Source: a virus. From it: a DNA stretch of 37,209 nucleotides. The notes beneath the pieces were generated by a model. The model was not told where the DNA came from, ran no database searches, and saw only the letters and a list, made by a program, of their open reading frames with translations. Where the stretch lies: positions 1-37,209 of IMG/VR virus record IMGVR_UViG_3300009499_000004; one strand, written 5' to 3'. Positions 3,110 to 31,535 of the stretch are shown here, piece after piece. The translations under genes and the position numbers were made by a program. How positions within the stretch are numbered: position 1 is the first letter of the stretch; each line of letters starts with the position of its first letter.

Positions 3110-4239
3110 TCCCCACGCTCTCGGTCGTGATGATCGTCAAAGACGAAGAGGACTCCCTAGCCCGCTGTCTCAAGAGCGTCGAGGGCGTGGGGGATGAGCT
3201 TGTCATCGTCGATACGGGATCGAGCGATGGCACGGTGGAGATAGCGCGGCATTTCACCCGTAAGCTCTACTTTCACGAGTGGGAGGACGACTTCTCCAAG
3301 GCCCGGAACCAGGCGCTGTCATACTGCACCTGTAGCTGGTGCCTACAGATAGATGCCGACGAGGAGCTTGTCAGAGAGGACATCCCGGTCTTGCGGGAGA
3401 CGCTGGAGCAGTTGCATCCGATAAGCAAGGTCCACGCGGTGCTCATGCCCATTCTGAGCTATCTGCCGTCGGGACTGATCGCCAAACACTACTTCCACCG
3501 CCTCTATCGTCGAAAGCGCGTACACTATGAGGGGTATGTGCACAACCAAGTGGAGTTTGATGGCCGGAACGCGATGGCCGAGATACGGATTCTGCACCAT
3601 GGCTACGCCCTCTCGCCAGAGGAGATGCGGAGGAAGCAGGAGGTGCGTCGGCGGCTGATGGAGAAGGAGATAGAACGAACCGACCCAGAGAGTGCCTGGA
3701 ACGCCTTTGCCTGGATGAACCTGATACGGCTCTACAGAAACTGGCTGGACTGGGAGAAGGTCATAGAGCTTGCGCCGAAGGTCTTGGAGCATCCAGCAGC
3801 CCAGGAGGTTCACCGGCAGACCGTTGCTGCGGACACGGTGATGGCTTGCACCGCCCTGCACCGGTTTGAGCTTGGCATAAGCGTGGGCCTCAAGGCACTG
3901 GAAGAGACGCCCGATTGCTTCGACGTGCTTCATCATCTCGGCTGGCTCTACCTTGACGCTGGGCGAGTAGGGGAGGCGAAGCTAACATTTGAGAAGTGGT
4001 TATACTACAAGATCAGGGAGCGCGTCAACGGACCGAGGCCCAGCTATCTGATAATCGACACGCACCAGTGCGAGCCTCACGTTTGGGAGGGTCTAGCGCG
4101 GTGTTACGACATGATGGGGAACCGAGAACTGGCATCGAACGCGATGGGCTGGGCCGTGATGGCTAGAAGGAAGCAGGCGAGCGATGTGGTGGCGATGCAA
4201 ACAGAAAGTGGCCTTCGGCCAAATGAGGTAGCCGTATGA
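3106..4239 (+). CDS. GT2-family glycosyltransferase with TPR-like C-terminal domain
   Basis: 377 residues from ATG 3106 (ATGA overlap); an upstream in-frame extension to 2866 lies inside other genes and was not used. Residues 1-110 carry GT-A hallmarks: LSVVMIVKDEED, VDTGSSDGT and a DAD metal-binding motif at about residues 83-85 (QIDADEEL). The second half contains helical pairs typical of TPRs. This pairing is common in bacterial GT2 enzymes that transfer a sugar from a nucleotide-sugar donor. Sitting between putative internal virion proteins, it might glycosylate virion proteins or alter host surface glycans; the substrate is unknown. The last codons lie in the 24-bp hairpin repeat (4198-4221), giving QTESGLRP near the C-terminus. 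Confidence 0.85.
   Translation: MIPTLSVVMIVKDEEDSLARCLKSVEGVGDELVIVDTGSSDGTVEIARHFTRKLYFHEWEDDFSKARNQALSYCTCSWCLQIDADEELVREDIPVLRETLEQLHPISKVHAVLMPILSYLPSGLIAKHYFHRLYRRKRVHYEGYVHNQVEFDGRNAMAEIRILHHGYALSPEEMRRKQEVRRRLMEKEIERTDPESAWNAFAWMNLIRLYRNWLDWEKVIELAPKVLEHPAAQEVHRQTVAADTVMACTALHRFELGISVGLKALEETPDCFDVLHHLGWLYLDAGRVGEAKLTFEKWLYYKIRERVNGPRPSYLIIDTHQCEPHVWEGLARCYDMMGNRELASNAMGWAVMARRKQASDVVAMQTESGLRPNEVAV
4198..4221 (+). repeat. 24-bp hairpin element, copy 1
   Basis: Core GAAAGTGGCCTTCGGCCA preceded by CAAANN. TGGCC and GGCCA form a perfect 5-bp stem around TTC. Other copies are at 10105-10128, 29744-29767 and, reversed, 23418-23441. This copy ends 18 bases before the glycosyltransferase stop. 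Confidence 0.93.
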
Positions 4240-7200
4240 GTTGGTGGCAGTGGGCAACCGAGGAAGAAAAGAGCAGATTCGATGCTCACGAGCTTCTGCG
4301 CGAGTATCGCCCGCCGGAGGCTCCAAAACCGCCTGCCGTGCCCACACCTACGCCGAGGCCAGTGCCTACACCGGCGCCAGCAGCACCACGGCTACCAGCG
4401 TTTGCGCCGCAAGTGGAGCCAGAACTTGCGGCACAGGGCCAGCGGATGACCTACCCAGGGGCTGTCAGGGCGGCGGTGGGCCAGATACCATCCTTCGTGA
4501 GATCGCTTCGTGACCTGGTGGTGACTGGCCGCTTGCCTGAACAGGAGCCGACCTGGGCACAGCCTATCACCCGAACATGGGAGGATTTCAGGCAGCAGAT
4601 TCTACGGCCCGCCAGTATGCTCACGCAGGAGCGTATCGCGGCCCCTTTGCTGGGCGAGTTGATGCGCTGGAATGTGCCCTATCGGATGCTGGCCCCCGAG
4701 CGGGCTGGTCCTTCGCCTTGGGGTGAGATACCTGAACTGGCCAAGCGGGCCGTAGACGTCGGGGAGCCGTTGCCGGGCGTTGGAAGGCTTCCTGCCTTCG
4801 CCAAGCAGCGCTACGAGGAAGCCAGGGCTTACGAGCCGACCCTGCCAGCGGGCGTGAGGCTGGTCGGAAGGCAGCTTCTCGACCCGCTGGGCCTGGGTGG
4901 TGCTTGGGCGTCAACTATGCTAACAGGCCCGCTGGGTGCAATCTATAGGATCGTAGACATCGCTGACTACACCGCTTTTCTTCTCTCGGCGACCCCAGAC
5001 GAGCTAAAGGTAGCCGCAGCCTTGATAGGCGTGGGAATAACCGCCAGGAACCTGCCAAAGATCAGAGCCTTCGTAAAGAGGGTGGCTGGCGGGGCCACAC
5101 CAGCGATGCGGAGAGCCGCGCAGGAGGCGGCGCCGGCCGTGCAGAGGTTCATGGCTGAGGAAGCAGGGGCGGCGGAGATACTGGGGAGGCCGCCGGTTCC
5201 CAGTGCGGAGCGGTGGAACGAGATACAGGATCAACTCGTCCCTCTAAGGCGTCGGTTCGAAGAGCTAACGTATGGACCAATCCGCGCGCAGCGGAGAGAC
5301 AATATCTTTGAAAGAATGCGGAAGCAAATTGAGGCCCTTGAGGAGGAGGCAGCATTCCACAAGCCAGCAGTAGAAGAGCCAGCAGCGGCGGAGATACCCG
5401 GACGGCCACCTGTGCCCGAGGTGGAGCCAGAGGACTTCGTGCAGCGAGTGTCAAGAAGGGTGGACGAAGATAGTCTCAAGATGGGCAGGCGGCTACGGCT
5501 AAGTAAGCCTGAGAGGTTACTGACAGTCGTGGTAGATGGTGAACCTGCTTGGTCATACGAGGGGTTCTTTATCGAGGTGGGCGAAACGCCTGCTCGCTTC
5601 AAGGGTGCCCAGAGCGTGGATAGGGGGGCCGTCAGTTGGCTTGCTCTCTTTGAGGGGGAGGGATCGCCTGCCCTTCCGATGGGCACGGCTAGAGGGGACT
5701 ATCTCGCGGACAAGGTGAAGACAGGTGATGAGGTCGTCTTCATATCAGAGGCCGGGGACGCTATATCAGTGGCTACGAGATACTGGGGCTATTTCCAGAA
5801 GAAATACAAGGATGCTGAGTGGCGTATGTATGGCCCAGACAAGGGCGTGGAGGTGAGGTCTCGAGGACGTACTGTTGGCTTCATCATGCCGTTCGTGCGT
5901 CAGGGTCGGCTACCCTCAGAAGTGTTCACTCAATGGTCAGACCTGGTTACGCGCGAAACCCCGACCACAGAGATTGGCGGAAAGACGTTCAGGGCAGGCC
6001 AGCGAGTGCGCAGTGGCCCCCAGGAGGGCTTTATCGCAGAGACCGCCCATGGTTGGGTGATGCGAGCAGACACTCCGTTGGTTCCTGGTGCTCGGAGAGA
6101 CATCCCCCTGCGGGATATTGCCGATTATATCGAGCCGATTGGCCCCGACGTGGCTGCTCCGGTCCGGCCGGAAGCACCAGTCGCCGTGCCCGAAGCTGCG
6201 CCAGAGGCGATGAGGCCGATGGAGGTGCCGCCAGAAGAGGCCGCAAGGCTGGCCCGCGAGGCGGAGGAAGCGGCGGGGCAGAGAGCCCTTGGTGCCCCCG
6301 CGCCAGAAGCGAAAGAGTACTGGCAGATGACGCGCGAGGAATACGAGGGCCGTCGTCTATACAGTCCATCGTGGGATCCAGAGCACCGAGAGGTCATCGA
6401 AGAGGCACTGGCCGAAGCCAGGCCCGTTCCCGCCAAGGTCCTGGCCGAGTATCCCGACTTGGCCAGAGCTGCCCCTGCGCCAGAAGCGCCGCCTGTGCGT
6501 GCGGTAGCGCCAGCAGGACTTCCCGACCCCTGGACATTGCCGCGTGACCTGTATGTGCGGGCAACTGGTGCGACTGACCGCGCGGATGTTCTGCAAGCCC
6601 AGATGCAGTGGCGCACCGGCATTGAAGAGGCTTACAGACGGGGCGAGATTGACTTGGGCACGCGAGGTCTCAGCAAGGCTGCGGATATGGTCATCCGCGA
6701 TCTGAGGGCGAGGCCCCCCGCGCCTGTGCGTGCCCCAGTGACGCGGCCAGTTACGCCCGGCGTTGCACCTTTGGCTGAGCCAGCGGTTCCACCACCCGCT
6801 GTCCCAGCGTTTCCTCCTGTGACCGCTCAACCCGTACCCGGAGCTGGGGGCATTCCAGGCCAACCCTTGGCTCCGGGTGCGGGAGCGGCGGTCGTTGCGC
6901 CAGCGGGTAGGCCCGTTCAGCCGCCGTTGGCTGCGGCTGGCGTGCAGATAGCACCGGGTGGGCCACCTGCGGGTGCAGTGCCACCTGCTGCGCCTCCAGG
7001 GGCCGTAGTGCCTCCGCCGGGCAGTCCGCAACTACCTGGCTTCGTGACTCGGCCTCCAACCGCGCCAGGGCGCCTCGCCTCTATTCTTGATAGTGGCGAG
7101 ATTCTATCGTCTCAGAGGAGGCCTGACCTGGCGCGCAGGATGATGACCTTTGCCGAGACACATCACGTAACGCCGATGGTGAAACTACTGCGATCTATCG

Positions 7201-23663: not shown

Positions 23664-24575
23664 ATGAGCGAGAATGTTCCGAATATCAGGACCACCCAAG
23701 ACCTCGCACTACTGACCGGGCAACAACTGGCCCTCATCAAAAACACCATTGCCAAGGGCGCAACCGACGAGGAATTGCATATGTTCCTGGAGGTTGCCCG
23801 AGCAACTGGTCTCAATCCCTTCGCCAAGGAGCTGTACTTCATCAAGTACAAGATGCGCAATGGCACGAGCAGCGTCGCTATGCCCGTGGGCATCGACGGC
23901 CTGCGGCGCAAGGCAGCAGAGTCAGGCGACTACGCGGGTCAGGTCGGCCCACACTTTTGCGGAGAGGACGGAGAGTGGAAGGATGTCTGGCTCTCCAAAG
24001 ACCCGCCAGCGGCCTGTAGGGTAGGAGTCCTCCGCCACGGCAATCCTGAGCCTACTTGGGGCATCGTGAAAGCCAGCGAGTTCGCCAAAGACACCAACTT
24101 CTGGCGGGACATGCCTACCCATATGCTGGCTGTGACGGCCGAGCGACATGCTTTGCGGAAGGCGGCACCGAGGCTGGTGGAGAAGATACAAGCGGCCGGG
24201 GCTCAGGTCATGGACGCTGACTATCTCATCGCCAAGGGTGAACAGTTCGAGCGGCAGCGAGCTCTCCCGCAGCAGAGTCCGGCTGGTGACTTGCAGCAGG
24301 AGTTGTACGGTCAAGGCCCGACCGGGAGCGAGGGCGATAAGAAAGAAGAGCCGGTCGAGTGGACCAAGACGGATTTGGCCGAGCTCAAGGCAGCCGTCGA
24401 GCAGAGAGAGCTTTCGTCCAAGGAATGGCGCGAGCTGCTTGGCCTGACGGCGACCGCCGAGGTAAAGGATGTGGTGGCACTCGGCAGCGTTGCGACGGTC
24501 ATCAAGTTGCTGGAGGCCGCCTTTGCAAAGGCGGTAGCGAACGAGCCAGTGGGGCAGGCCAAGCTCGGGTTCTGA
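23664..24575 (+). CDS. bet: Bet/RecT-family single-strand annealing protein
   Basis: 303 residues, SD AGGAGG at 23650. The first 190 residues carry the Bet/RecT core: TGQQLALIKNTIAKGATDEE, LEVARATGLNPFAKELYFIK, then the conserved hydrophobic runs around WGIVKASEFAKD and MPTHMLAVTAERHALRKAAP. The C-terminal 100 residues are a charged linker and small helical module. It anneals complementary single strands during phage recombination. The usual exonuclease partner is absent next to it; SbcCD and a VRR-NUC protein are nearby candidates to make the 3' tails. Confidence 0.88.
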   Translation: MSENVPNIRTTQDLALLTGQQLALIKNTIAKGATDEELHMFLEVARATGLNPFAKELYFIKYKMRNGTSSVAMPVGIDGLRRKAAESGDYAGQVGPHFCGEDGEWKDVWLSKDPPAACRVGVLRHGNPEPTWGIVKASEFAKDTNFWRDMPTHMLAVTAERHALRKAAPRLVEKIQAAGAQVMDADYLIAKGEQFERQRALPQQSPAGDLQQELYGQGPTGSEGDKKEEPVEWTKTDLAELKAAVEQRELSSKEWRELLGLTATAEVKDVVALGSVATVIKLLEAAFAKAVANEPVGQAKLGF

Positions 24576-24676
24576 GAGACTCGCCCGCGCTCCTGTGCGC
24601 GACACGTGCTCCAGGCAATGCCACGAGCATTGCGCACTCTGGCGGCGGGAGGGCGGGCCTCAAAAGAGGAGGAGAT
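24576..24676. other. Non-coding spacer in the early operon
   Basis: About 100 bases with a G/C-rich purine tract (GGCGGCGGGAGGGCGGG) and the SD of the next gene. No convincing hairpin, promoter or ORF was found. Confidence 0.4.
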
Positions 24677-24895
24677 GTGAGCAAAGAAGTAGGCCACCTG
24701 AACAACGCACTAGGACATCTGATGCAGGCCACTGAGACCCTTGCCACCAAGCCAATAGTCAACGAGAAGGCGGTTAGAGATTGTGTTGCCGCTGAGATGG
24801 GCGTCAGACACCTTCTAGCCTTCCTAAGGGGGAGTGATGAGATTCATGCACCTGGCGGACGCCCACCTGGGATACCGCCAGTACAACAGCGATGA
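24677..24895 (+). CDS. Hypothetical small protein, 72 residues
   Basis: GTG 24677 follows AGAGGAGGAG. The N-terminal 50 residues (VGHLNNALGHLMQATETLAT, ...VRDCVAAEMGVRHLLAFLRG) are two amphipathic helices. The C-terminal 20 are Pro/Gly-rich and overlap the sbcD start by 59 bases in another frame. Looks like a small helical-hairpin phage protein. Function unknown. The overlap may serve coupling. Confidence 0.55.
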   Translation: MSKEVGHLNNALGHLMQATETLATKPIVNEKAVRDCVAAEMGVRHLLAFLRGSDEIHAPGGRPPGIPPVQQR

Positions 24896-26087
24896 CAGGG
24901 CGCGGGACTTTGCCCGTGCCTTCCGGCAGATGTGTCAGAAGGCGATAACTGAGCGATGCCAACTGGTGCTCATCGCCGGCGACCTGTTCCACGGCTCGGC
25001 CATGGACCCCCGGACGTTTTTGCAAGCTGTGGGGGCACTTGAACCGCTGCGAGAAAAGGGCATTGATGTTATCGCCATTGCTGGCAACCACGATCGCGCT
25101 CGCACGAGCCGGGGACTGAACTGGCTTCACGCTCTCCAGAAGCTGGGCTTGGTGACACTGCTGGAGATCGGCATCGAGAAGGGAGAGCTGAGTCTGGAAA
25201 AAGCGGTCTGGGAGAGACACGAGATTCGCGTGATTGGCATTCCCTTCGTCGGCACGGGGCTGCCGCAGATTCTGCCCCAGATCGCCGACTATCTGGCGCT
25301 TGAGGCGATGGGTCCCACCAAGTTCACCATCCTGATGCTCCACGCTGGGCTGGAGGGCGAGATACCAGCTTTCCGAGCATCGCTGACCATGGAGAACCTG
25401 GCTCCCTTGGGCCCTCACGTAGACTATCTGGCTCTCGGCCACATACACAAGCCTTACGCTCGCGGCGACTGGATATTCAACCCAGGGAGCCTGGAGACAG
25501 TCAGCATCGATGAGGCCCAGTGGGACGATCGAGGCGGTATCCTGGTGGAGATCGAGGACGGTCTGATAACGGGGCCGCCCACGATTGAGTGGGCTATCCC
25601 CGATCGGCGACCGTTTGTGCAGATAAGTCTAGGGGTGGATACGTTTCGTGACCCAGAAGCGCTATATCGGTTCTATGTGCTCACTAGCAAAGACCATGCC
25701 ATGCTCCGCGCAGAGGAAATTGGGCAAAATCCAGTAGTTGAGCTGCGGCTGCAAGGCTCTCTCCAGTTTGATCGCTCTAGTCTTGAACTGTCCCGCATTG
25801 AGCAAATCATCGAGGACACGTACCATCCGCTTCTGGTCCGCATCCGCGATCACACCGAAAGCGACGCCTCGGAGATCGCAGTCACCGAAGACGCCACCCG
25901 GGCCGAGATTGAGCGCCATGTGGTGCGGGAGCTGGTGGGACGCGATGCGGGGCGCAAAGAGCACGCAGAGTTTTGGACATGGATGATCTTAGACCTCAAG
26001 GACATGGCACTGGCCAGGAATGCCCCGGAGAAAATCATCGCGGCCGCCCGATCAGGCCAGAGAAGCCTTACCGAGGGCCTATGCTGA
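24837..26087 (+). CDS. sbcD: SbcD/Mre11-type nuclease
   Basis: 416 residues from ATG 24837. Metallophosphoesterase motifs are all present: D8-x-H10 (HLADAHLGY), LIAGDLFHG, AIAGNHDRAR, LMLHAGLEG and ALGHIHKP. A cap and C-terminal helical region follow. With SbcC/Rad50 it forms an ATP-dependent exo/endonuclease that trims ends and opens hairpins. In phages (T4 gp46/47) it supplies recombination and end-resection during replication. Gene order sbcD-sbcC with a 19-base gap is standard. Confidence 0.93.
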   Translation: MRFMHLADAHLGYRQYNSDDRARDFARAFRQMCQKAITERCQLVLIAGDLFHGSAMDPRTFLQAVGALEPLREKGIDVIAIAGNHDRARTSRGLNWLHALQKLGLVTLLEIGIEKGELSLEKAVWERHEIRVIGIPFVGTGLPQILPQIADYLALEAMGPTKFTILMLHAGLEGEIPAFRASLTMENLAPLGPHVDYLALGHIHKPYARGDWIFNPGSLETVSIDEAQWDDRGGILVEIEDGLITGPPTIEWAIPDRRPFVQISLGVDTFRDPEALYRFYVLTSKDHAMLRAEEIGQNPVVELRLQGSLQFDRSSLELSRIEQIIEDTYHPLLVRIRDHTESDASEIAVTEDATRAEIERHVVRELVGRDAGRKEHAEFWTWMILDLKDMALARNAPEKIIAAARSGQRSLTEGLC

Positions 26088-26106
26088 ACATACTACGGGA
26101 GGAAAC

Positions 26107-28554
26107 ATGCCGATCAAGTCGATCGAGCTTGAAAACTGGAAGAGCTATGGTTTCGCCAAAATCCTCTTTGATTCCGGGGTCACGGCCATCCTCGGGGAGA
26201 ATGGGAGTGGCAAGTCGAGCATCCTGGAGGCGGTGGGGTTCGCGCTCTTTGACCATCGCAACGGCAAGCTGGAGGCCCTACTCCGGGAAGGGGCCAAGTC
26301 GGGTAGAGTGGCCATATCCCTCACATCATCCCTGGATGGCGCCGAGTATCTGGTAGAACGGGAGTTCACCGCCAAGGCCACGACCAGCTATCGAGTCCAC
26401 CAACCGGAACGGGCGAATCAGATAGTGGCCCAGGGTGCAGCGGACGTGCAGCGGTGGCTCCGAACGCATATGGGAGTACCGCCCGACGCGCAGTTGGGCA
26501 CGGTGTTCGAGAACACCATCGGAGTTCCGCAGGGCACTTTCACCGCTCCCTTCCTGCTGGCGCCGGCGCAGCGCAAGGCCGTGTTCGACCCGCTGCTTCG
26601 TGTGGAGGAGTATCGGAAAGCCTCAGACAACTTGCGGCCTACGGTGCGCCAGCTCAAAGACGAGAAGGCTACTCTGGACACGGAGATCGCGCGCATGGAG
26701 GGGGTGTTGACAGGGCTGCCAGGACTGCGCGAGGAGCACAAGACCCTGGGGTATGACCTGGCGCGTCTTGGAACAGTTCGGGCCTTGCGCACCCAGCAGC
26801 TAGAGAAAGCCGAGGCCAAACTGAGAGTGCTGGGCCAGGCCGCCAAGCGTGTTGAGGAGGCTGACCGGCAGACCGACACAGCCAAGGTTCGGCTTGACGC
26901 TCACGAGGCGCTTTGCGAGACCGCGTTGCATGGCACTGAGGAAGCCGAGAAAGCGACCCAGGTGGTCGCGGAGAACTTGGTCGGCTACGAGGCTTACATC
27001 GAGGCCGAGGTCAAGGTGCAGGAACTCGAGACCAGCCAACAGGAACAAGCGCGGCTCCTGGCCAAGCGGGCCCAGTTGGAGGTTCAGATAGCCCGACTGG
27101 AGGGCGCAAGGCAAGAAGAGGAACGAAGCAAGCAACAGATCGCGCAAGGCAAGATGAGGGTCCAGGAGACCGAGGCCGGCGTGGAGAAGGCTGGGCAGCT
27201 TGAGAAGCAGATACAGGCGCTTGACACAGAGGCTGATCAGATACGTGAGTTGCTCACGCAAGCCAATGCGACGAAAGCAGGTGTTCGTGCCGAGTGGCAA
27301 GGTCTTCAGCGCCAGTCGGACTTCCTTGCGGATGCCGTCCTTGCTGCTTGTCCCACCTGCGGATCCGAGTTGACCACCGAGCACCGCGAGGAGATTAGAT
27401 CGCGAAACGAGATCGAGATAGAGGGTTTGCGGTCTGAGGAAGCCAGACACAACCGACATACCGCAGACCTCCAGTATACCATCGCCCAACTCGGGCCCCG
27501 GCGGGTCGGTGCACGGGACAGGCTGCGAAATCTCCCCGCGCAGGGCGACCTGGCTCGCACCCGACAAGACCTCGCCAAGCGCGAAGGGGAGCTCGAGGCA
27601 ATAAAGGGCCGGCTGGAGATGCTAGCCCAGGCCCCCAGCGCCTTGAAGCAAGTAGATGTCGCACTGGAGCCCTTCGCCGGACTTGAGAGAGAACTATCCC
27701 TCTGGCGAGCGCGACACGGGCTACACAAGCGTGGACACACACTCTATCTGGGCAATGTCACCCTCGCCCAGCAGCAACCCGAGCGCCAAGCCAGACTGGA
27801 GGAGGTACGTGCCAAACGCAATGAACTCGTTTGCGAATGGCAGCGACTGGCCGAGGAACATTGGCGAGCCAAGGGTGATTACGACGGCGAGGAGCACGCC
27901 AACGTCCAGGCCGAGACGACTAGGCTCCAGCTAGAACTCGCCGGCGTCCAGGCCCAGCTCAAGGAGAAGGCGTATCGCCTCACCGTCGTCAAAGAGAGCA
28001 TCGAGTCCCTTGAGGGCCTAGAGAAGGAGCTGGCCGTCAAGAGTGCGCTAGCCACAGAGACCAGTGACCTCCTTGCGACGATGGAGACCGTGCGGGACAT
28101 CCTCCGCGAGGCAGGCCCTTACGTGACCCGACGCCTGGTCCGGCAAATCAGTCAGGGGGCCTCCACGACGTTCGGAGACCTGATGGGCGACTCGGGGCGA
28201 CGGCTCCAGTGGTCAGAGGACTATGAAGTGTCGCTAGACGTGCGTGGTCACAGTCGGACCTTCGCACAACTCTCGGGCGGTGAGCAGATGGTCGCAGCCT
28301 TGGCGGTGCGGCTGGCCCTTCTACGCGAGACGTCGGCGATCGACGTGGCATTCTTCGACGAGCCGACGGCGCACCTAGACCCTGAGCGTCGGCAGAGTCT
28401 AGCCGACAGGCTGAGCCAGGTCAAGGGGTTCAGCCAGCTCTTCGTCATCTCGCACGATTCTACCTTTGAGTCTGCCGCCGAGAACACCATCCGCATCGTG
28501 AAGGACGAGAGAGGCAGCCAGCAAGAGGAGGAGCGAGATGCCAGCACCGAATGA
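26107..28554 (+). CDS. sbcC: SbcC/Rad50-type ATPase
   Basis: 815 residues from ATG 26107, SD GGGAGG; a longer frame to 26020 overlaps sbcD and is not needed. Walker A GENGSGKSS near residue 35; long coiled coil; zinc hook CPTC at residues 415-418; second coil; ABC signature LSGGEQMVAALAVRLAL (about residue 722); Walker B FFDEPTAHLD. It is shorter than cellular SbcC (about 1050 residues), so the coiled coil is reduced, as in phage homologues. Its last codons (EEERDASTE) are duplicated at the end of the next gene. Confidence 0.95.
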   Translation: MPIKSIELENWKSYGFAKILFDSGVTAILGENGSGKSSILEAVGFALFDHRNGKLEALLREGAKSGRVAISLTSSLDGAEYLVEREFTAKATTSYRVHQPERANQIVAQGAADVQRWLRTHMGVPPDAQLGTVFENTIGVPQGTFTAPFLLAPAQRKAVFDPLLRVEEYRKASDNLRPTVRQLKDEKATLDTEIARMEGVLTGLPGLREEHKTLGYDLARLGTVRALRTQQLEKAEAKLRVLGQAAKRVEEADRQTDTAKVRLDAHEALCETALHGTEEAEKATQVVAENLVGYEAYIEAEVKVQELETSQQEQARLLAKRAQLEVQIARLEGARQEEERSKQQIAQGKMRVQETEAGVEKAGQLEKQIQALDTEADQIRELLTQANATKAGVRAEWQGLQRQSDFLADAVLAACPTCGSELTTEHREEIRSRNEIEIEGLRSEEARHNRHTADLQYTIAQLGPRRVGARDRLRNLPAQGDLARTRQDLAKREGELEAIKGRLEMLAQAPSALKQVDVALEPFAGLERELSLWRARHGLHKRGHTLYLGNVTLAQQQPERQARLEEVRAKRNELVCEWQRLAEEHWRAKGDYDGEEHANVQAETTRLQLELAGVQAQLKEKAYRLTVVKESIESLEGLEKELAVKSALATETSDLLATMETVRDILREAGPYVTRRLVRQISQGASTTFGDLMGDSGRRLQWSEDYEVSLDVRGHSRTFAQLSGGEQMVAALAVRLALLRETSAIDVAFFDEPTAHLDPERRQSLADRLSQVKGFSQLFVISHDSTFESAAENTIRIVKDERGSQQEEERDASTE
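28525..28551 (+). repeat. Gene-junction direct repeat, pair 5 (second copy 28925-28954)
   Basis: GAGGAGGAG, a few variable bases, then ATGCCAGCACCGAA. It recurs at 28925-28954. Each copy encodes the EEE-x-x-ASTE end of one gene plus the SD and MPAP start of the next. The pair brackets the 140-residue ORF. Confidence 0.9.
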
Positions 28555-28960: not shown

Positions 28961-29771
28961 CAAGATTGGATACTGCGACTACTCAGGCGGCGACCTGAAT
29001 GTGGTACTCGGTTGCACGCCGGTATCGGCCGGTTGCGCCAACTGCTACGCCCGCCGCATCTATGAGCGCTTCGGCAAGGACTTCACCCAAGTGACCGTCT
29101 ATCCCGAGAAGCTGGAACGGCTTCTCAAGTGGCAGCCCAAGCCGCCGTTCAAGCGTGGGCCAGGTAGTAGGCCGCTGGCTTTCGTCTGTGATATGAGCGA
29201 CCTCTTCCACGCGGACGTGCCCAGGACCTTCATTCTGATAGCCATTGAGATCATGGAGAAGAGGGGGGACATTGATTGGCTTCTCCTGACCAAAAGACCA
29301 AAGCGGATGTCGGAGGTTCTCTGGCGACTGGGCTGGTGGAGTCATGGCCATACCCCAGCAAATATCTGGCTCGGCGTCACTGTCGAGAACGAGGACAACC
29401 TCTGGCGCATCGACGAACTGCTGAAGACGCCCGCCACCGTGAGGTGGGTGAGTCTGGAGCCGATGCTGGGGCCGATTGAACTCGGGCTCATTGGAACTAT
29501 CCCCAAAGACATCTCGCCCTCCTACCGCCTAGTTGGAGACTGGATTGATTGGATTGTCATCGGTGCCGAGTCTGGCCTCAACGGCCGCCCGTTCGAGAAG
29601 GAGTGGGCGTGGGATGTGCTTGACCAGTGCCGAGAGGCGAATGTGGCGTGTTTCCTCAAGCAGGACTCCGGGGCACGACCAGGCGTGCCGTTGCTGGACA
29701 GGGAAGGCAGAGAGGTGAAGGAATGGCCGGAACCAGCGCCGCGCAAAGTGAAAGTGGCCTTCGGCCATTGA
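28941..29771 (+). CDS. Gp37/Gp68 (DUF5131) family protein
   Basis: 276 residues from ATG 28941 (GAGGAGGCGG upstream). The N-terminal GCTPVSAGCANCYARR supplies the C-x6-C-x2-C cluster of the family. Downstream are VCDMSDLFHADVP, DWLLLTKRPKRM, NIWLGVTVEN, RWVSLEPMLGPI and VIGAESGLNGRPFEKEWA, in the usual order. The fold resembles a radical-SAM-type barrel; the reaction is not established. The family's usual three-Cys-motif partner (TcmP) is not encoded here. The last codons (KVKVAFGH) cross a copy of the hairpin repeat. Confidence 0.9.
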   Translation: MPAPKRSKIGYCDYSGGDLNVVLGCTPVSAGCANCYARRIYERFGKDFTQVTVYPEKLERLLKWQPKPPFKRGPGSRPLAFVCDMSDLFHADVPRTFILIAIEIMEKRGDIDWLLLTKRPKRMSEVLWRLGWWSHGHTPANIWLGVTVENEDNLWRIDELLKTPATVRWVSLEPMLGPIELGLIGTIPKDISPSYRLVGDWIDWIVIGAESGLNGRPFEKEWAWDVLDQCREANVACFLKQDSGARPGVPLLDREGREVKEWPEPAPRKVKVAFGH

Positions 29772-30115
29772 GCGCGACCGTTGCCGACAAAGACGTCCTT
29801 CGCGTGGGAGACCTGGTGTTGAACCTGAACAGTGGCGAGGTTCATGCCGGGACCAGGACTGCCCAGCTTACACCGACCGAGACTGACATGCTCAGGTTCC
29901 TGATGGTGCAGAGCCCTCGGGTCTCTAGCGCATACCAATTATGGGATGAGCTGTGGAGCTCGATGGGATCGGGTCTGTCTCTCGTGAGGCGCTACATCAA
30001 AAGCGTCCGTGGCAAGATTGAGGATGATCCTGCGCATCCGAGCCGGCTTGTGAATATGAGAGGATTTGGCTATCGGATTGTGGCGGTGGAAGAAGGTCAG
30101 AAGGAGGCAACTTGA
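29723..30115 (+). CDS. Stand-alone OmpR/PhoB-type winged-helix regulator
   Basis: 130 residues from ATG 29723 (SD GAGAGGTGAAGG), overlapping the previous gene by 49 bases. Alternative TTG at 29769 would omit the repeat-encoded peptide. Residues about 20-125 are a transcriptional-regulator C-terminal winged helix: LTPTETDMLRFLMVQSPRVS, LVRRYIKSVRGKIEDDPAHP, GFGYRIVAV. No receiver domain is present, so it is not phosphorylation-gated. It could switch early/late transcription or act on host promoters. Confidence 0.85.
   Translation: MAGTSAAQSESGLRPLSATVADKDVLRVGDLVLNLNSGEVHAGTRTAQLTPTETDMLRFLMVQSPRVSSAYQLWDELWSSMGSGLSLVRRYIKSVRGKIEDDPAHPSRLVNMRGFGYRIVAVEEGQKEAT
29744..29767 (+). repeat. 24-bp hairpin element, copy 4
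   Basis: Same 24 bases as copy 2 (CAAAGT plus core). It is read as KVKVAFGH by the ending Gp37-like gene and as QSESGLRP by the overlapping regulator, the latter in the same phase as copies 1 and 2. Confidence 0.93.
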
Positions 30116-30459: not shown

Positions 30460-31272
30460 ATGAAGTCCTGGGTCAAGCTGTACACCGAGATCAACCGGGA
30501 TCCGAAGATGGCCGAGTTCACCTGGGCACAGAAGGGCATCTGGGCTGCGCTGTTGGCACTCGCTGGAGACCTGGATATCCGTAAGGGAGACGGCGCCGAG
30601 ACGGGGCAGCTACAGTCGGTCCCGGACACCGCGTGGAGCATACGTTGCGACATCGGCGAGTTCACTGAAGCAGTCGAGGCATTGTCGCGGCCAGTAGGTC
30701 AAGACAAGAGAGGGATGCTTTACGACCAGGATGGTATCCTATTCATCACCAACTATGCCAAGCGGCAGGCCCGGGCCCCATCGGCACGACCGGCAGCGAC
30801 CCGAGAGAGAAAGCGACGGCAACGAGCCAGGGAGTCACAACCTCGTCACGAGCCGTCACAACCCGTCACGCCCTCAGAGTCAGAATCAGAGACAGAGACA
30901 GATACAGAATCAGATCAGAGTCAGACACAGAACGTGACCCCCTCACACCAAGCCCCCGCCAAGCACCGCGGTCTGCGCCCCATCTCTGATCTGATTTCTT
31001 CTCTTTCTGTTTCTGATTCTGAACTGACCAAACGGGGCCCGCCGCAAACCGACGCCGCCAGAATCGAGTATGCCATCCAGATACGCGAACGCGCCGAGCG
31101 CGGCAAGCTGCCCGGTCGCGAGGAAGCACAGATGCGGCAATGGGCCAACGAGTATGGTGCGGCCGTGCTCTATGAGGCTACGCGCCGCACGGCCTTCAAG
31201 AAGCCAGACAACTTCGGGGCATACCTGCGTAAGACCCTGGAGCAGATCGGCAAGCCCAGGGAGCCACCGTGA
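30460..31272 (+). CDS. Replication initiator/replisome organiser with embedded candidate origin
   Basis: 270 residues, SD GGGAAGG. The N-terminal 110 residues (SWVKLYTEINRDPKMAEFTW..., LFITNYAKRQ) match the winged-helix N-terminal domain typical of phage replisome organisers. Residues about 120-190 are a low-complexity Ser/Glu/Thr/Gln linker whose DNA forms the iteron-like structure described at 30834-31022. The C-terminal 80 residues are helical (AARIEYAIQIRERAERGKLP, NFGAYLRKTLEQIGKP), likely the DnaB/DnaC-loading part. Origin inside the initiator gene is the lambda-O arrangement. No helicase, primase or polymerase gene is present, so host machinery is needed. Confidence 0.72.
   Translation: MKSWVKLYTEINRDPKMAEFTWAQKGIWAALLALAGDLDIRKGDGAETGQLQSVPDTAWSIRCDIGEFTEAVEALSRPVGQDKRGMLYDQDGILFITNYAKRQARAPSARPAATRERKRRQRARESQPRHEPSQPVTPSESESETETDTESDQSQTQNVTPSHQAPAKHRGLRPISDLISSLSVSDSELTKRGPPQTDAARIEYAIQIRERAERGKLPGREEAQMRQWANEYGAAVLYEATRRTAFKKPDNFGAYLRKTLEQIGKPREPP
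30834..31022 (+). other. Candidate replication origin inside the initiator gene
   Basis: GTCAC occurs at 30834, 30845, 30855 and 30865, phased by 10-11 bp, with an inverse GTGAC at 30934. Next comes a run of CAGA/TCAGA repeats (30875-30930) and its mirror. TCAGAATCAGA (30880-30890) is inverted at 31012-31022, and ATCAGATCAGAG (30909-30920) is inverted at 30984-30995. The nested arms make a 40-bp imperfect inverted repeat around a 63-bp centre. Helically phased short repeats in an initiator gene are typical of iteron origins. Confidence 0.65.
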
Positions 31273-31535
31273 GTGCCAAGCGTGTTGACGCCAACCAGGC
31301 CAGCATCGTCGCAGACCTGCGAGCGATCGGCGCCACTGTACTCCACCTCCACGCCGTGGGACAAGGATGCCCGGATATCCTGGTGGGGTTCCGGGGCGAA
31401 AACTATCTGTTCGAGATCAAGAGTCCGAAGGGGCGGCTGACGCCTGGGCAGGAAGGCTGGCATTCGCTGTGGTGGGGCCAGGTGGCGGTCATTCGGTGCC
31501 TTGAGGATGCTTTGGCCATAATGGGGCTTGACTAG
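31269..31535 (+). CDS. VRR-NUC (PD-(D/E)XK) nuclease domain protein
   Basis: 88 residues, GTGA-coupled to the initiator. GCPDILVGFRGENYLFEIKS holds the catalytic PD...E-x-K, preceded by the family's N-terminal helix (ANQASIVADLRAIGATVLHL). VRR-NUC singletons in phages are proposed to cut branched or flap DNA, here plausibly clearing replication/recombination intermediates before packaging. The downstream promoter overlaps its stop codon. Confidence 0.9.
   Translation: MSAKRVDANQASIVADLRAIGATVLHLHAVGQGCPDILVGFRGENYLFEIKSPKGRLTPGQEGWHSLWWGQVAVIRCLEDALAIMGLD

Follow-up and report, generated by a model that had tools for sequence, protein, structure and literature searches.

The 37,209-base virus record IMGVR_UViG_3300009499_000004 from IMG/VR (linear, probably incomplete, and referred to here in its entirety as the window) very probably carries the replication origin of its phage embedded within the coding sequence of its own initiator. 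Four GTCAC sites, separated by steps of 11, 10 and 10 bp, lie in the middle of an open reading frame (ORF) predicted to encode a replisome organizer of 270 amino acids, and are followed by a purine-rich CAGA/AGA tract (Table 1). An origin inside the initiator had been proposed in a first-pass annotation of the sequence, and is the best supported explanation because the position of the sites is conserved, no array of this kind lies outside initiator genes in related loci, the adjacent duplex is weak, and a basic helix of the initiator covaries with the sites. The same annotation had recognised the four phased sites, the CAGA-rich repeats and a mirrored copy of the latter, all of which were confirmed. 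The evidence presented below supports the view that selection acts at the DNA level on GT[A/C]AC (GTMAC) iterons set one or two helical turns apart, and that these iterons belong to initiator genes.

Two null models were applied to the array, one in which synonymous codons were permuted inside the gene and one in which codons were drawn from the usage of the phage's other genes. A chain of four phased GT[A/C]AC sites appeared in 6 of 2000 in-gene permutations, whereas recoding from the codon usage of the phage yielded no such array (0 of 20,000) and never generated four copies of any 5-mer in a chain at 10 or 11 bp (0 of 5000). The repeat region, which encodes SESESETETDTESDQSQTQ and ISDLISSLSVSDSE, is written in codons that the phage otherwise seldom uses: serine is TCA in four of five cases within the tract (8% elsewhere in the phage) and TCT in all six cases within the mirror arm (10% elsewhere), and threonine is ACA in all four cases within the tract (12% elsewhere). 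The unusual codons of the tract and mirror are themselves the signal. The earlier suggestion that the low-complexity Ser/Glu/Thr linker is a coding cost of this signal fits the abnormal codons, the sites that fall in all three reading frames, and the failure of the recoding nulls.

The tract should also be unusually easy to unwind, the duplex weakness of the 60-bp segment beginning at 30873 being equalled at only 0.1% of window positions, and most of its AGA trinucleotides are spaced by 6 bp. Direct repeats within the initiator gene and an easily unwound tract adjoining them are both features of the lambda O type of origin architecture. Two known elements were considered as alternative descriptions of the tract and rejected. 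The DnaD recognition element, defined as pairs of 5'-TnnT-3' (PMC10201434), is not enriched on the pyrimidine strand, which has 6 TnnT opposite the tract, compared with 10.8 +/- 1.9 in shuffled sequences; and the dominant AGA period of 6, with a smaller rise at 3, does not have the trinucleotide period of a DnaA-trio.

Relatives of the initiator were reached by way of the terminase, which led to a locus (L003) with an initiator gene a short way upstream of its terminase gene. The L003 initiator is 47% identical to that of the window over its full length and, used as a query, yielded eight further relatives, one of them (L056) in a metagenome-assembled genome of the Anaerolineales; the window initiator as the sole homology query had 0 matches in viral contigs or phage records. 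In nine genes (that of the window and eight relatives) there are 37 GT[A/C]AC sites, lying after the basic helix and before an acidic tract and occupying all three reading frames, and all 28 steps between them are 10, 11 or 21 bp. No chain of three or more phased GT[A/C]AC sites was found outside these initiator genes in 667 kb of related loci. Across the relatives, the DNA sites of the linker are retained and its protein sequence is poorly conserved. In the tenth gene (L056:1510-2466) the array is disrupted and two palindromic CGTTACGTAACG units are kept; these follow an HNH-nuclease-like segment that interrupts the linker at the position of the iterons. The initiators of L045-L048 and L050-L052 have strongly divergent C-terminal domains alongside a conserved N-terminal domain, helix and iterons, which suggests that swapping has occurred at the origin.

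The sites are probably bound by the initiator itself, because a basic helix of the protein covaries with their central base. Directly after the winged helix, the initiators have a helix of the form R-X1-x-x-X4-R, which reads R-V-x-[KR]-[HY]-R in association with GTAAC and R-K-x-x-Q-R in association with GTCAC, the window included. With a second DNA scan, for GTCAC arrays, covariation was assessed in all families by a fixed helix-selection rule, each 60%-identity cluster being counted once for each of its site types, giving 36 clusters, which are not fully independent and among which the rule selects the wrong helix in a few proteins. X1 was V in 18 of 27 GTAAC cases and in none of 14 GTCAC cases (p = 3e-5); X4 was H or Y in 21 of 27 versus 1 of 14 (p = 3e-5), and Q or S in 0 of 27 versus 9 of 14 (p = 6e-6). 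Within the WIKL-type group, X1 was K in 10 of 12 GTCAC users versus 1 of 42 GTAAC users (p = 3e-8). Several clusters contain both site types, with the helix altered to match (L083/L217, L084/L061 and L107/L228). The window (K118 and Q121, with GTCAC) and L048 obey the rule, and L050 (Q and H, with GTCAC) is an exception to it. The covariation is not a coding artefact, because the codons for the helix precede the sites. A likeness of the basic helix to the basic regions of eukaryotic basic leucine zipper proteins, with their half-sites GTCA and GTAA, was considered and set aside, a PDB sequence search having given it no support.

Table 1. Features of the putative initiator gene and its embedded origin (window coordinates).
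Feature	Position	Strand	Basis
Trans_reg_C regulator gene, directly upstream of the initiator ORF	29627-30112		
Initiator / replisome-organizer ORF, 270 aa	30460-31272	+	weak PHROG matches; relatives match better
N-terminal winged-helix domain, residues 1-105	30460-30774	+	AlphaFold2 model, pLDDT mostly 76-93
Basic helix, residues 111-126, ...TRERKRRQRARE...	30790-30837	+	AlphaFold2 model; K118 and Q121 covary with iteron central base
Iteron 1, GTCAC	30834-30838	+	sequence scan
Iteron 2, GTCAC	30845-30849	+	sequence scan
Iteron 3, GTCAC	30855-30859	+	sequence scan
Iteron 4, GTCAC	30865-30869	+	sequence scan
CAGA/AGA tract, purine-rich top strand, A-ending codons	30873-30933	+	codon usage, duplex stability
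Fifth site, inverted (reads GTGAC on + strand)	30934-30938	-	
Pyrimidine-rich mirror arm	30984-31022	+	complementarity, duplex stability
C-terminal helical domain, residues 187-263	31018-31248	+	helices in full AlphaFold2 model

Arrays of this kind are widespread in phages. When viral contigs were scanned at the DNA level only for three GTAACG at steps of 11 and 10, at least 120 contig stretches were found, versus 3 for the reversed pattern that served as a control. Among the matches listed, 40 of 60 distinct array-holding ORFs match a DnaD-like loader PHROG and 38 of 60 match PF09681, the array being located at residues 123-140 (quartiles) of the initiators; 7 of 88 GTAACG arrays are in non-initiator ORFs or on the opposite strand. 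Pairs of AGA downstream of these arrays number 239 at a distance of 6, 197 at 12 and 157 at 18, versus 59 and 39 at distances of 5 and 7, with no 6-bp periodicity of AGA upstream, and the AGA tract is 3' of the array in most families. Initiators with other types of N-terminus (YTKLF-, KLFxxI- and WLRLW-like) also have the array. The WLRLW-type initiators (L206, L214, L223, L255 and relatives, in many isolate-derived viral contigs) have GTCAC arrays and a basic helix ERKRAQRER, fitting the same apparent correspondence of helix and site in another N-terminal family. Three genes (L082, L113 and L132) contain two GTAACG arrays 282 bp apart, near residues 50 and 144 in L082 and L132. At the equivalent place, GTAAC/GTTAC or GTCAC/GTGAC sites are present in the initiators of phi11, Streptococcus, Listeria, Mammaliicoccus, Oenococcus and other Staphylococcus phages. 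In a second PF09681-like subgroup (Streptococcus Javan263 and Javan192, Enterococcus, Brochothrix) that place is taken by GGACAAA/TGTCCGGACA-type repeats, with a similar tract after them; four replisome organizers of this subgroup with a YYYLKL start (L067, L068, L069 and L070) have these repeats at the equivalent linker position, followed by an AGA/GATA tract.

The identity of the window protein as a distant DnaD-like replisome organizer is indicated by matches that are weak but consistent, namely to phrog_186 (DnaD-like helicase loader, E = 5.5e-4) and phrog_3926 (replication initiation protein, E = 0.003); its relatives L003, L045 and L046 match phrog_10469 with E values of 2e-8 to 1e-10. 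Searches of PDB sequences with the initiator, a profile of its N-terminal domain or the basic helix gave no meaningful match, and Foldseek alone gave nothing with E under 0.001 for the initiator. The top VIA-align matches of the N-terminal domain are the RepA_N initiators 4pql, 5kbj and 4pt7 (Z 8.8), with winged helix-turn-helix proteins of the MarR type within 1. In the AlphaFold2 model, linker residues 134-186 are disordered, with a predicted local distance difference test (pLDDT) value under 50. The C-terminal domain, which presumably contacts the helicase or its loader, reached a pLDDT of 58 when modelled alone, and this low-confidence model was not used.

The pyrimidine-rich mirror arm is 77-87% complementary to the CAGA tract over 19-31 nucleotides at a separation of 62-103 nucleotides, and the weakest 50-bp duplex of the whole window begins at 30982. 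An inverted repeat this strong occurred in none of 400 recodings with phage codon usage; under in-gene codon permutation it was marginal (14 of 300 and 29 of 300), because this null retains the unusual codons. The mirror and its hairpin are probably a lineage-specific addition, a local elaboration and not part of the core, because the hairpin is strong in the window and lacking in most of the relatives examined.

A mechanism can be envisaged in which initiator protomers would bind side by side and cooperatively on one helical face, bending the DNA and destabilising or melting the adjacent AGA tract. With one exposed strand of the tract held in place, the C-terminal domain would recruit the host helicase or its loader, and theta replication would begin. 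The Ser/Glu/Thr linker would be a coding by-product of the DNA signal, and the mirror copy could either open up a further weak region, with the opposite strand polarity, or fold into a hairpin.

Alternatively, the array may be an operator, with the initiator or another early regulator binding the in-gene sites to control transcription and the origin being located elsewhere. Short, helically phased sites would suit an operator too, a Trans_reg_C regulator gene is situated directly upstream, and the covariation indicates that the initiator reads the sites, not that they function as an origin; but the sites are mid-gene rather than at a promoter, in most families an AGA tract comes after them, and the genetics of phage 80alpha put the origin in a gene of like layout. 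We consider an operator unlikely. That the CAGA tract and its mirror serve mainly to form a large hairpin, whether in the mRNA or in single-stranded DNA, with a part in regulation or in the loading of a primosome, and that the GTCAC sites are secondary, is suggested by the folding energy of the window strand (-31.8 versus -13.9 kcal/mol in shuffled sequences, z -6.6), and is nevertheless very improbable: the corresponding strand of L003 has a z of only -1.4, and most relatives conserve the iterons and tract without the hairpin. It is extremely doubtful that the DNA repeats arise simply because Ser-Glu-Thr codons recur in a linker that must be acidic and flexible. The linker is indeed of low complexity and disordered in the model, and alternation of acidic residues alone yields some 6-bp periodicity, but one and the same 5-mer occurs in all three reading frames, the codons include rare ones ending in A or T, the recoding nulls do not recreate the array, and it is the DNA sites and not the protein that are kept among relatives.

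Besides the case for an operator, a role that the array could have in place of or alongside that of an origin, several observations weigh against an origin embedded in the initiator gene. The PHROG matches of the window protein are weak, and it has no match to PF09681 (Phage_rep_org_N) at the gathering cut-off, which its relative L045 approaches (score 21.0, cut-off 23.3). No gene for a helicase or loader was recognised among the scanned ORFs of the window, the mirror arm has no conservation beyond L003, and part of the AGA period is attributable to alternating acidic residues. The experimentally tested phages of comparable layout, 80alpha and TP901-1, have different iterons. The first-pass annotation had also looked to a strand switch in cumulative GC skew, which is absent, the skew rising throughout the window; this test is uninformative because all the main genes are on one strand and no switch is expected.

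Origins are found within initiator genes in lambda and Stx phages (PMC7466680), SPP1 (PMC6316719) and 80alpha (PMC5499656), and the putative origin of the window is best read as a widespread GTMAC variant of the arrangement in lambda O, SPP1 gene 38 or 80alpha gp20. The origin of lambda and Stx phages in gene O similarly has at least four direct iterons in the central part of the initiator gene, followed by an unwinding tract (PMC7466680). In the window, unlike in lambda, the 5-bp GTMAC cores recur each helical turn and the tract is AGA-periodic, not simply A+T-rich; no profile match of the window protein to lambda O was found. The iterons of lambda are longer than these 5-bp cores. In SPP1, gp38 binds direct repeats in its own gene 38 (oriL) beside an A+T-rich DNA unwinding element (PMC6316719), a likeness that is drawn from description only: repeats within the initiator's own gene and a weak duplex adjacent to them. 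The origin of 80alpha has been mapped genetically to the initiator gene, since complementation in trans fails for a gp20 deletion and ORF20-21 enable a plasmid to replicate (PMC5499656), and the 80alpha record annotates an origin inside gp20. Its linker repeats are likewise followed by a simple-repeat tract, but both differ from those of the window (CCAACnnTGGAAAAACCGTTAAnGGTAAA iterons and ACTAATAAT repeats) and there is no phased GTMAC array. The PF09681 organizers of phi11, Streptococcus and Listeria phages, which are about 27% identical to L045, resemble that of the window in having GT[A/T]AC or GTCAC/GTGAC sites at the equivalent place followed by an acidic tract, and differ from it in that the sites form closely packed, often palindromic GTAACGTTAC units. 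The plasmid initiators of the RepA_N family (pSK41, pTZ2162) have an N-terminal winged helix-turn-helix, as the window protein is predicted to, and tie with MarR proteins as its best structural matches, but RepA_N iterons are as a rule semi-palindromic and placed around a poly-A tract (PMC7145576).

All recognisable genes of the window are on the + strand, in the order tail and holin genes, HNH nuclease, RecT, SbcD-like, SbcC-like and Trans_reg_C regulator, then from the initiator ORF onward a VRR-NUC-like ORF, putative small terminase, large terminase and portal-like protein. The RecT, SbcD-like and SbcC-like genes (23664-28554) constitute a recombination module near the replication region. 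The small VRR-NUC or endonuclease-like ORF (31269-31535) lies between initiator and terminase; its L003 counterpart (3855-4511) is longer and looks fused to a winged-helix regulator domain. A related domain is present in 6 of 400 Chloroflexota genomes, two of which (L076 and L077, apart from L056) have GTAAC arrays near initiator-like matches, possibly a hint at the host phylum of the window phage.

A short single-turn GTMAC iteron found across initiator families, together with a period-6 tract and a two-residue code, appears to be new; in the literature searched, the coverage of which was partial, no paper was found to describe GTMAC arrays in the initiators of phages. We tentatively suggest, at slightly less than even confidence, that a single origin code (GT[A/C]AC at every helical turn and a period-6 AGA tract) is common to initiators with several N-terminal families, in phages of several bacterial phyla; that it is read by a short basic helix, two residues of which determine the central base (V with H or Y for A; K with Q or S for C); and that phages switch specificity by changing helix and sites together, and so avoid cross-initiation. 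For uncultivated phages, the location of the origin is seldom known; if such a code exists, many phage origins would be readable directly from sequence, and origin specificity would be predictable from two residues of the initiator, a prediction that could be tested with two point mutations. The initiator of the window would then illustrate how a coding linker may be shaped by a DNA signal.
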